Part shown: positions 46,380 through 50,508 of the stretch, one piece after another
Layout: each line of letters opens with the position of its first letter
Position numbering within the stretch: the stretch's first letter is position 1
NCBI GenBank assembly: GCA_002477755.1
Contig: DLKD01000114.1
Coordinates: 1 to 54,616 of the forward strand
Source: Gordonia sp. UBA7599
Lineage (GTDB): Bacteria; Actinomycetota; Actinomycetes; Mycobacteriales; Mycobacteriaceae
DNA length: 54,616 nt
Direction of reading: 5' to 3'
Notes under the pieces: generated by a model
Told to the model about the DNA's origin: nothing
The model's database searches: none
What the model saw: only the letters and a program-made list of their open reading frames with translations
Translations under genes and position numbers: made by a program

Positions 46380-46856
46380 CTAGAGGGCCGCGTGTCCACC
46401 GCTCGACCCGTATCCACCGGCCCCACGGCTCGTGTCATCGAGCTCGTCGACTTCACACAGGTCGGGCAGTTCGACGCGCTGCACCACCAGCTGCGCGATC
46501 CGATCGCCCCGCTTGATGACGATCGGCTCATCCGGGTCGAGATTGATCAAGCAAACCTTGATCTCGCCGCGATAGCCCGCATCGATCGTGCCCGGCGTGT
46601 TGACGATCGACAGGCCCGCGCGCGCGGCCAGTCCCGAGCGCGGGTGGATGAGGCCGACGGTGCCGTGCGGCAGTGCTACTGCGATCCCGGTCCCGACCAG
46701 CTGGCGGCGCCCGGGAGCCAACTCGGCATCGGTCGTCGAGTACAGGTCGACGCCGGCGTCGCCGGGGTGGGCCCGGACGGGCAGCGGAAGGTCCTTGTCG
46801 AGGCGCTTGACTCGCAGCGGGACGGAGGGGGCGGGTGACGCGATTCGATCGGGCAC
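46380..46856 (-). CDS. dut: Deoxyuridine 5'-triphosphate nucleotidohydrolase (dUTPase)
   Basis: It hydrolyses dUTP to dUMP, keeping uracil out of DNA and feeding thymidylate synthesis. It has 158 residues and is a trimeric dUTPase: motif 1 AGVDLYS, motif 2 [11 protein letters not shown], motif 3 [16 protein letters not shown], motif 4 [10 protein letters not shown], and motif 5 [12 protein letters not shown]. The GTG at 46856 lies 6 nt after TAGTCT, so it is probably leaderless. It is divergent from the DUF3093-PyrD gene across 23 bp. Confidence 0.96.
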
Positions 46857-46862
46857 AACCGC

Positions 46863-46872
46863 AGACTACGCT
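46863..46872. promoter_or_regulatory. Overlapping opposed -10 boxes between dut and the DUF3093-PyrD gene
   Basis: TAGTCT on the minus strand (46868-46863) ends 6 nt before the dut GTG, and TACGCT on the plus strand (46867-46872) ends 7 nt before GTG 46880. They share the central TA. Both genes would be leaderless and their promoters mutually exclusive. Confidence 0.5.
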
Positions 46873-46879
46873 GAGCGGC

Positions 46880-48520
46880 GTGACTAGTGACGCCCAGACT
46901 CTTCGATACGACGAACGGCTGTGGGTGCCCCTCTGGTGGTGGGGTGCGGCGGCCGTCGTCACCGTGGTCCTCGGCTACGAGATCCGACTCGGTGCCCACC
47001 GCGCGGCCTGGAGCTGGTGGGCGTTCCCGGTCGTCGCCCTCGTCTTCGCCGCCCTGTTGGTGTCGATGGGCCGCCACCGCGTACGCGTCGGTGGCGACGG
47101 TGAACTACTCGCCGGTGGCGCCCGCCTGCCCCGTTCGGTCGTCGGTCGGGGTGCTTCGGTCCCGGCGAGCGCAAAGAGCGCGGCCATGGGCCGCCAACTC
47201 GACCCGGCCGCGTTCCTGGTCCACCGCAGCTGGGTCGCTTCGATGGTCCTGCTCGTCCTCGACGACCCGGACGACCCCACGCCGTACTGGCTGGTCTCCA
47301 CCCGTCACCCGGACAAGGTGTTGGCTGCGATGGGCATCGCCGACGCCCGTCTCGACGGCACCCCCGAATCCCCCGTCCACGTCGAGCCGCAGGGACGCGG
47401 CATCCTCGGCGCCGTGGCCGCCGCCACGTTCCCGCCGTTTCTGTGGTTGATGTTCCGCATCCCGCCCGAATCGATCCACGGCCTGGTGTCGCGTCTCATC
47501 CGGCTGGTCGGCACGCTTCCCGGACTCGGCCGACTCACCGGTGGTGTTCTCGTCGTCGACGACCCGATCTTGCGCCAGGACGTGCTGGGCACGACCTTCC
47601 CCGCACCGATGGGCCTGGCCGCCGGATTCGACAAGAGCGCCGCGGCCGCACGCTCGTGGGGGCCGCTGGGATTCGGATACGCCGAGGTCGGGACGATCAC
47701 CGGCCAGGCCCAACCCGGCAACCCCAAGCCGCGTCTGTTCCGACTGCCCGCCGACCGCGCCCTGGTGAACCGGATGGGGTTCAACAACCCCGGCGCCGAC
47801 GCGGCCGCCGCACGTTTGGCCCGCGCTCGCCGCTCACCGCGAACCCACTCGGTGCCGATCGGGGCCAACATCGGCAAGACCAAGGTCGTCGACCTGGCGC
47901 AGGCCGCAGACGACTACACCCATAGCGCCGCAACCCTCGGCCCCCTGGCCGACTTCATCGTCGTCAACGTCAGCTCTCCCAACACGCCGGGCCTGCGCGA
48001 TCTGCAGGCCGTCGAGGCGCTGGCGCCGATCTTGGCCGCAGTGCGCGCCGCCACCGACCGCCCGGTGCTGGTGAAGATCGCCCCCGATCTCGCCGACGAC
48101 GACGTCGATGCCGTCGCCGACCTGGCCGTCGAAGCGGGTTTGGCCGGCATCGTCGCCACCAACACGACCATTTCGCGCGATGGCCTGCAGTCGCCGGCAG
48201 CACAGGTGACCGAGGCCGGGGCGGGTGGCCTGTCCGGGCCACCTGTCGCGGACCGGTCCCTGGAGGTGCTGGCACGCCTGCACGCACGCGTCGGCGACCG
48301 CCTGGTGCTGGTCAGCGCCGGCGGTATCGAGAACGCCGACGACGCCTGGGCGCGCATCCGTGCCGGGGCCACCCTGCTGCAGGGCTACACCGGGTTCATC
48401 TACGGCGGACCGCTGTATGCAAACCGCATCCACGCGGGCCTGGCGGCCCGGGTGCGCGGCGCCGGCTTCGCGTCGATCGCCGACGCCGTCGGCACGGCTG
48501 CGCGCAACACCCGGTCCTGA
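46880..48520 (+). CDS. pyrD: DUF3093 membrane domain fused to dihydroorotate dehydrogenase (quinone)
   Basis: A single 546-residue reading frame. Residues 1-155 are a DUF3093 protein with two membrane helices (about 16-36 and 46-64). Residues from about 179 are a complete class 2 dihydroorotate dehydrogenase, including the membrane-associating N-terminal helix ([16 protein letters not shown]), [24 protein letters not shown], the catalytic serine loop [12 protein letters not shown] (365/366), NTTISRDG and [11 protein letters not shown]. No stop separates them. In M. tuberculosis these are distant genes (Rv2698 and Rv2139). An internal GTG at 47414 could give free PyrD but lacks a clear ribosome site. 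Confidence 0.88.
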
Positions 48521-48536
48521 CCAACGCGACGCCGGG

Positions 48537-49091
48537 CTATCCCGCGGCCGGCTCCTCGTAGGTGCCCACGATCACCGCACGGGCGATGGCATGTCCGAAC
48601 AGGTTGAACCCCAGATAGGCGGGAGTGGCGCCCTCGGGCAGGCCCAGCGACTCCACGTCGAGTGCGTGCACGGCGATGAAGTACCGGTGCGGGCCGTGCC
48701 CGGCGGGCGGGGCGGCGCCGACGAAACGGCGGCCCGACGCGTCGTTGGCGAGGGTCACCGCGCCGGCGGGCAGCGAACCCGGCTCACCGTCGCCGACCCC
48801 GGTGGCCAGTGAGGTCACCGACGCCGGGATGTCGGCGACCGCCCAATGCCAGAAGCCCGACGCGGTGGGCGCATCGGGGTCGTACACGGTGATCGCGAAA
48901 CTGCGCGTCTGCTCCGGGAAGCCCGACCAGCTCAACTGCGGCGACGCATCCTCACCGCCCGCGCCCATGATGCCGCTGACCTGCGGCTTGGCCAACGGGG
49001 CGCCGTCGGTGACGTCGGTCGACGTCAGCGTGAACCCGGGCAGCACGGGTAGCGCGGCGTACGGGTCGTAGGTGCGGGTGGAGTCGGACAT
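48537..49091 (-). CDS. PEBP/YbhB-family protein
   Basis: The 184-residue phosphatidylethanolamine-binding-protein fold has the ligand-site motifs [16 protein letters not shown] and [13 protein letters not shown]. There is no signal peptide. The bacterial role is unclear; the mycobacterial orthologue (Rv2140c) binds phospholipid-like ligands. ATG 49091 has GAGAGG upstream. It follows the M20 peptidase gene by 23 bp and converges on the DUF3093-PyrD gene. Confidence 0.92.
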
Positions 49092-49114: not shown

Positions 49115-50449
49115 TCAGCTGTGCAGGAGGAAATGCTCGAAAACCTTGGTACCGAACAACACTGAGTCGACGGGTACCCGTTCGTCAACCCCGTGGAACA
49201 GGGCGGAGAAATCGAGGTCGCGCGGCAGCTGCAATGGGGAGAATCCGAAGCACCGAATGCCCAACTTGGCGAACGCCTTGGCATCGGTGGCTCCCGACAG
49301 CATGTACGGCACGGTGCGCCCGTCGGGGTCGTGGGCCAGGATCGCCGCGTTCATTGCGTCGACGAGGCGCCCGTCAAAAGTCGTCTCATACGGCTCCAGG
49401 CGGGTGATCCACTCCCGTTCGACGTTCGGACCCAGCAACGCGTCGATCTCCGCCTCAAAGGCCGCCTGTCGGCCGGGCAGCACGCGGCAGTCGACGACCG
49501 CCTCCGCGTGCTGCGGGATCACGTTGGCCTTGTATCCGGCGCTCAGCATCGTCGGGTTGGCCGTGTCGCGCAGCGTCGCACCGATGACGCGCGCGAACCC
49601 GCCGATCTTGTGGAGTGCTGTCTCCAGGTCGGGTGTGTCGACGCCCAGATCCAGGCCGGTCTCCTCCGACACCGCGGCCAGGAACTCGCGCACCGCGTCA
49701 GTGAGGACCAGTGGGAAGCGGTGGGCACCGATCCGGGCGACGGTCTCCGCCAGCGCGGTGACCGCGTTGTCCTCGTGCAGGAACGACCCGTGCCCGGCGA
49801 TGCCGGTGGCGCGCAGCCGCATCCACGAGACGCCCTTCTCAGCCGTCTCCACCAGGTACAGGCGCTTGTCGCTCCCATCGGGCCGGTCGACGGTCAGGGA
49901 GAAGCCGCCGACCTCACCAACGGCCTCGGTGACCCCGTCGAACAACTCCGGACGGTTCTCAACCAGCCAGTGCGATCCCCACGTGCCGCCGGCCTCCTCA
50001 TCGGCGAGGAAGGCGAACACCAGCTCACGTGGCGGTACTGTGCCCTCCCGACCGAATTGGCGGGCCAGCGCCAGCGTCATCCCGGCGGTGTCCTTCATGT
50101 CGACGGCGCCGCGCCCCCAGATGTAGCCGTCGGCGATCGCACCGGAGAACGGGTGCACCGACCAGTCCGCCGCCTCGGCGGGCACGACGTCGAGGTGGCT
50201 GTGCACGAGCAGGGCGCCCGACGTGCTCGCCGGATCGCCCGGCAGGCGCGCGAAAACGTTGCCCCGGCCCGGCTGACCGGACTCGACGTAGGTCGTCTCA
50301 TACCCGGCCTCGGCCAGCTGATCGGCGACCCAGTGCGCGCACTGCGCCTCCCCCTTCGTGGTCTCCGGCTCGCCGGTATTCGACGTGTCGAAGCGGATCA
50401 GTTCGGCAATCAGGTCGACGACTTCGTCGAGGGCGCGGGGGGTGTTCAC
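49115..50449 (-). CDS. M20-family metallopeptidase/deacylase
   Basis: A 444-residue dizinc enzyme. Metal and catalytic residues include VHSHLDVVP (His, Asp), GRGAVDMKD (bridging Asp), FLADEEAGG (Glu-Glu) and the late [11 protein letters not shown] (His). The family includes carboxypeptidases, aminoacylases and DapE; the substrate is unknown, though the M. tuberculosis neighbour (Rv2141c) is labelled DapE2-like. GTG 50449 lies 6 nt after CATAAT, so it is probably leaderless. Confidence 0.9.
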
Positions 50450-50455
50450 ACCTCC

Positions 50456-50461
50456 ATTATG
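50456..50461 (-). promoter_or_regulatory. Candidate -10 (CATAAT) for a leaderless M20-PEBP mRNA
   Basis: CATAAT on the minus strand ends 6 nt before GTG 50449. GGAGG lies in that 6-nt gap, too close to the GTG to act as a ribosome site. Confidence 0.5.
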
Positions 50462-50466
50462 CGAAT

Positions 50467-50496
50467 TTGGGTAAACCGCGCGTCCTCGGTTAGGGT
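50467..50496 (+). promoter_or_regulatory. Promoter of tRNA-Leu
   Basis: TTGGGT (50467-50472) and TAGGGT (50491-50496) are separated by 18 nt; the tRNA begins 13 nt after the -10. Confidence 0.55.
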
Positions 50497-50508
50497 TATC
50501 CGGCACTC

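Follow-up and report, generated by a model that had tools for sequence, protein, structure and literature searches.

A DUF3093-PyrD gene fusion in one clade of Gordonia marks a chromosomal rearrangement and probably yields a membrane-anchored dihydroorotate dehydrogenase

The 54,616-nucleotide stretch of Gordonia DNA analysed here (the window) carries a true gene fusion, DUF3093-pyrD. It is a single open frame of 546 codons plus TGA, with no internal stop in the translation of 46880-48520, and it joins a whole DUF3093 domain to a whole class 2 dihydroorotate dehydrogenase (PyrD). Taken as a whole, our account is that a rearrangement created a leaderless gene that is translated as a single chain and gives a membrane-anchored PyrD, and we consider this account probable. 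The features on which it is built are collected in Table 1.

Table 1. Features of the fused gene, its surroundings and the reciprocal junction. Positions are those of the window unless another contig is named; residues are those of the fused protein.
Feature	Position	Strand	Remarks
dut (dUTPase)	46380..46856	-	Divergent neighbour of DUF3093; Pfam; adjoins 7/7 separate DUF3093 loci examined
TACGCT, -10-like element	46867..46872	+	7 nt upstream of GTG 46880; putative leaderless start, from spacing
Fused gene DUF3093-pyrD	46880..48520	+	GTG start, 546 aa + TGA, 57.0 kDa
DUF3093 domain, residues 9-151	46904..47332	+	Pfam, whole profile
Predicted transmembrane helix 1, about residues 14-32	46919..46975	+	One Kyte-Doolittle window, 1.64 at residue 14
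Predicted transmembrane helix 2, about residues 42-66	47003..47077	+	Kyte-Doolittle windows 1.71-2.02 starting at residues 42-48
Linker as tested, residues 158-185	47351..47434	+	28 codons; end overlaps first PyrD helix
ATC (Ile175)	47402..47404	+	Commonest start-codon position of free Gordonia pyrD
Class 2 PyrD, residues 183-542	47426..48505	+	With N-terminal part and catalytic Ser loop
PEBP/YbhB-like gene	48537..49091	-	Convergent to pyrD; Pfam PF01161
M20 peptidase	49115..50506	-	Next in pyrD block; Pfam PF01546; 7/7 separate pyrD loci
Reciprocal scar: uppP, lppL-like, DUF5703, DUF4193, suhB-like gene	G000:C102:20852-25376 (L196)		Same in all five fused genomes

Both halves of the frame are complete. 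The Pfam profile PF11292 (DUF3093) matches residues 9-151 over its entire length (profile positions 1-140 of 140) with an E value of 2.7e-48 and 164.3 bits against a gathering cut-off of 23, which assigns the N-terminal half to the DUF3093 family. In the C-terminal half, PF01180 (DHO_dh) lies on residues 231-523, and both NCBIfam equivalog models of the class 2 enzyme exceed their curated cut-offs, TIGR01036 (pyrD_sub2) on residues 190-542 (411 bits against 200) and NF003648 on residues 184-542 (558.6 bits against 433), which makes this half a class 2 dihydroorotate dehydrogenase. When it was aligned with the Mycobacterium tuberculosis DHODH (8ofw), the first aligned stretch was MYPLVRRLLF, opposite window residue 183; the alpha1-alpha2 microdomain, that is, PyrD's own N-terminal part, is therefore included. 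Pfam, NCBIfam and the 8ofw alignment thus agree with the initial annotation, which had placed a whole DUF3093 and a whole class 2 PyrD with its own N-terminal part in one frame. Six PyrD motifs of our choosing, which include the catalytic Ser loop and the FMN and orotate motifs, are intact in all five fused proteins that we found. The calculated mass is 57.0 kDa for the whole chain and 37.5 kDa counted from residue 183.

The same fused frame is present in 5 of the 59 genomes of the genus, namely that of the window (G000), G005, G008, G015 and G062, and the fused genes are 77-82% identical to the window's. The genus is Gordonia, since the PyrDs of three named Gordonia loci are identical to group members. 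Five species at this level of identity keep the frame open, with gaps only in the last few residues, so that its openness is beyond chance. In the remaining 54 genomes DUF3093 and PyrD are separate matches, two per genome and three in G036; the latter genome has two DUF3093 matches (G036:C1:2127146 and 2399424). The gene had been read at the outset as a true fusion to be sought in related genomes; its recurrence in five of them, with the two genes apart in the other 54, bears this reading out, as does the single origin described below. At E <= 0.001 the query matches each fused genome once, in the fused gene itself. As this match stands alone and its motifs are intact, the fused protein most likely supplies the dihydroorotate dehydrogenase of the cell.

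Outside these 59 genomes the fusion was sought at two levels. A junction query, applied with a cut-off of E <= 1e-35 that a diverged independent fusion could escape, returned 3 matches in 401 genomes of the family, all of them within Gordonia. G008 and G015 are not among these matches, and presumably they were not drawn into the 401-genome sample. At the level of the class, DUF3093 is present in 294 of 394 sampled genomes, and none of the seven DUF3093 frames of at least 488 aa among the matches listed (the window's excluded) is a further fusion.

According to two trees, the fusion has one origin. In a PyrD tree with 68 rows, 59 of them from the genus genomes and 9 named, the five fused rows form one clade with a support of 100/100, adjoining G064 and G025, in which the genes are separate. 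A tree of DUF3093, dut and DUF3710 from 12 genomes groups the fused five again as one clade, also with 100/100. A long branch leads to the fused clade, with 0.3 changes per column on the PyrD tree and 0.25 on the DUF3093, dut and DUF3710 tree; overall, this lineage seems to be either fast-evolving or sparsely sampled.

A missed stop, a frameshift or a chimeric contig could also have produced such a frame, and the assembly to which the window belongs is split into 173 contigs. However, the identical joint is found in five genomes, one of which (G005) is a single contig of 3.75 Mb, and the reciprocal joint is also present in each of the five. The suspicion of a missed stop or frameshift that accompanied the first reading is refuted by these two observations. 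An assembly or sequencing artefact was rejected on the same grounds, and we give it practically no chance.

The surroundings of both genes were informative about how the fusion was formed. DUF3093 regions were compared in 12 of the 59 genus genomes (5 fused, 7 separate). In the seven relatives with separate genes, DUF3093 adjoins dut and DUF3710, matching the left block of the window, and pyrD lies near the PEBP and M20 genes, matching the right block; the PEBP/YbhB-like gene is downstream of pyrD in 7/7 separate loci examined, not in every case directly adjacent. The distance from DUF3093 to pyrD is 159-430 kb in 26 separate-gene Gordonia genomes selected for having both on one contig. On the far side of DUF3093 in G064, G025 and G077 there is DUF4193 and then a suhB-like gene (3/3), and upstream of pyrD in the same genomes there are an lppL-like gene and uppP/BacA (3/3). 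The name of the lppL-like gene is our presumption, Pfam showing just a sub-threshold PQQ_2 match. In G064 an additional gene (L136:9325-9858), which we take to be SRPBCC-like, separates DUF3093 from DUF4193.

All five fused genomes carry the reciprocal junction, in which DUF5703 is flanked on one side by the lppL-like gene and uppP and on the other by DUF4193 and the suhB-like gene. Since the genes that bordered the segment on its outer sides now adjoin one another in 5/5, the rearrangement joined the two ends of the segment that runs between pyrD and DUF3093. A DUF5703 gene immediately before pyrD was detected in two of the seven separate pyrD loci scanned for it (L132, L134, L135, L137, L140, L141 and L144), those of G077 and G016 (L134 and L141), compared with all five fused scars, and this gene seems to come and go.

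A gene-by-gene map of G005, the single-contig genome, against G077 comprised 123 gene pairs, one of which (G077 4,802,899) fell outside the blocks and was set aside as a likely paralogue. G077 has the block order A-B-C-D-E, where B begins at DUF3093 and D ends at pyrD. In G005, D runs straight on into B (1,698,533-1,830,111), E adjoins A (1,996,102-2,020,000), and block C is found elsewhere and inverted (L179-L180, 1,938,858-1,959,782). The position and inversion of block C imply further rearrangements after or alongside the fusion. A single inversion was rejected, as it would give DUF4193-pyrD and DUF3093 on the lppL side, whereas the joints seen are DUF3093-pyrD and lppL-DUF5703-DUF4193. Both joints can be explained by excision of a segment with its ends joined, followed by a reinsertion in which it was opened elsewhere, or else by several successive rearrangements. 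The change of synteny block at the fusion, pointed out in the initial annotation, is real according to both the neighbour comparison and the G005/G077 map, and its proposal that the fusion marks a rearrangement is confirmed by the finding of both products. It seems that the fusion came about a single time, when a rearrangement displaced a large segment. In the common ancestor of this Gordonia clade, the chromosome would have been cut shortly downstream of DUF3093 and shortly upstream of pyrD, and the DUF3093 end and the pyrD end would have been joined in frame. The outcome could be a tolerated accident.

It is tempting to propose that the old DUF3093 promoter drives the fused gene and that a leaderless mRNA begins at GTG 46880. 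In all 12 DUF3093 loci compared, five of them fused and seven separate, a TANNNT element lies 6-7 nt upstream of an in-frame GTG, and the DUF3093-type GTG start is kept in the fused genes. This spacing suggests that the transcript is leaderless and starts at GTG 46880. A longer frame from GTG 46835 comes second, as the pattern common to the 12 loci would favour 46880 and the -10-like element lies within the longer frame. Only 23 bp separate the start codons of dut (46856, minus strand, as listed) and of the fused gene (46880, plus strand), so the promoters of the two genes would overlap.

Translation of the fused gene as a single protein is supported by the comparison of the five fused sequences. 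The linker contains neither gaps nor stops across the five species. Its pN/pS is 0.57, compared with 0.21 for DUF3093, 0.29 for the PyrD N-terminal part and 0.22 for the PyrD core, and its variable sites comprise 25 of 28 third codon positions against 33 of 56 first and second positions (p = 0.0054, on 28 codons only). The pN/pS value and the variability of codon position 3 together indicate that coding constraint on the linker is weaker but still visible. We regard this constraint as the best evidence that the linker is probably translated.

Alternatively, one frame could give two proteins, with PyrD produced from an internal start (GTG 47414 or ATG 47450) or by cleavage, and the fusion would then be transcriptional only. 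The faster evolution of the linker relative to the domains would suit this explanation, as would the start-type codons available around the joint. Every fused gene has at least one GTG within residues 152-190, at positions not common to all five, and Met191 (ATG 47450) is present in 5/5 fused and 53/54 free genes. Moreover, start positions vary among free pyrD genes too, each of which has a start-type codon somewhere in the range of residues 152-190. However, no start codon (ATG, GTG or TTG) within residues 152-190 is common to all five fused genes. GTG 47414 (residue 179), put forward earlier as a possible internal start, does exist in the window, but it is a start codon there alone among the five and is thus weakly placed for this role. 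By eye, no conserved Shine-Dalgarno-like sequence was seen in the fused linkers; an AGGAG-like sequence does precede the start of some free pyrD genes. In addition, 28 stop-free codons kept in five lineages, with position 3 the freest, would be needless upstream of an internal start unless they were also translated. On balance we think two proteins unlikely; cleavage of the linker is possible.

The codon at residue 175 also bears on this question. A start codon occupies this position in 40 of the 54 free pyrD genes (22 ATG, 18 GTG), against one of the five fused genes, where the codons are ATC, ATC, GTC, GTG and ACG. Such scarcity of starts is suggestive and would favour the single protein. 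However, 14 of the 54 free pyrD genes are also without a start codon at this position, and among them are those of the closest separate relatives, G064 and G025, with Ile at position 175 and frames opening further upstream. The absence of a start at residue 175 is thus not peculiar to the fusion.

Read as a single chain, the product would begin with two transmembrane helices, continue through the remainder of DUF3093 and a linker of about 25-28 residues, and end with a complete class 2 dihydroorotate dehydrogenase. Two N-terminal transmembrane helices are, we assume, typical of DUF3093. The topology proposed for this domain is based on hydropathy (helix 1 by one window) and on the requirement for a cytoplasmic PyrD; two helices and a PyrD that has to be cytoplasmic would place both ends in the cytoplasm. 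An AlphaFold model was built with 17 free PyrDs, PyrD relatives only. Its PyrD core is mostly confident, and residues 1-184 have a pLDDT below 50 except residue 55. The model contains helices at 18-37 and 45-64 in the low-confidence DUF3093 half, and at 175-193 (block pLDDT 41-60) and 196-212 (60-80) in the PyrD N-terminal part. The most likely product, as predicted from the domain order and hydropathy, is a PyrD with a transmembrane anchor of two helices, and the anatomy of the chain makes membrane tethering likely. The enzyme would then be permanently anchored, instead of resting on the membrane by its N-terminal helices alone.

It had been suggested that the fusion could reveal what DUF3093 does, and this is not supported by our results. 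In Rosetta-stone fashion, DUF3093 would normally partner PyrD, for instance in menaquinone access, and the fusion would have made the partnership permanent. Both proteins are membrane-linked, and the fusion has been retained through divergence to 77-82% identity, as this explanation would expect. However, a hand count of 24 same-order genomes outside Gordonia gave both in 9, DUF3093 alone in 5, a class 2-like PyrD alone in 4 and neither in 6, that is, no association (Fisher p = 0.41; n = 24, some of them incomplete, with one query). Moreover, the separate genomes examined have DUF3093 beside dut and pyrD beside other genes, and one fusion only was found, among the matches listed for the class and at E <= 1e-35 in the family. 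A normal partnership made permanent by the fusion is therefore, in our opinion, quite improbable. We are only slightly less doubtful that DUF3093, when fused to PyrD, does more than anchor it passively and positions or controls the oxidation of dihydroorotate at a certain membrane site or quinone pool, with a partnership in trans elsewhere. Among solved structures, the DUF3093 sequence found a single match, a chance one (E 2.1), and no mention of Rv2698 or PF11292 was found in the literature searched. A DUF3093 gene does appear in a table of a kansasii transposon study, where the essentiality call carries a caveat (PMC10470612).

The fusion was also compared with known dihydroorotate dehydrogenases. 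It shares the catalytic domain, the catalytic Ser loop and the N-terminal part with the PyrDs of M. tuberculosis (8ofw, 4xq6) and Escherichia coli (1f76). Unlike these free enzymes, it has about 180 additional N-terminal residues with two predicted transmembrane helices, and its own upstream context has been lost. The human mitochondrial class II DHODH likewise has a transmembrane anchor ahead of a class II catalytic domain, although in the fusion this anchor is a predicted one. However, the human N-terminus is a mitochondrial signal plus a transmembrane segment, whereas that of the fusion is a DUF3093 protein, predicted to have two helices, that was gained by bacterial gene fusion. The fusion is not a member of the mitochondrial-type anchored DHODHs, being a bacterial gene to which DUF3093 and its two predicted helices have been added, although it may work like one. 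PMC8910288 describes the E. coli class 2 enzyme as peripheral and the transmembrane domain as an acquisition of eukaryotic class II enzymes. By analogy, the Gordonia fusion could be an independent bacterial counterpart of the eukaryotic anchor.

No prior description of a DUF3093-PyrD fusion was found in the literature searched, which consisted mostly of titles and abstract openings; those listed for dihydroorotate dehydrogenase in connection with gene fusion or with Gordonia contain nothing on it. The case is a clear bacterial gene fusion in a core metabolic gene (a listing in PMC12862964 gives the pyrD homologue of M. tuberculosis as essential), and both products of the causal rearrangement have been found. 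If the product is one chain, it provides a natural bacterial parallel to the transmembrane anchor of eukaryotic class II DHODH.

The comparison with free DUF3093 proteins of Gordonia points in a further direction. They have the whole domain, the dut neighbour and the GTG start type in common with the fusion, and the seven that we compared end about 5-20 residues past the domain, whereas the fused chain continues into PyrD. If that chain is made as one, DUF3093 tolerates a large C-terminal cargo, and its C-terminus is then probably cytoplasmic.
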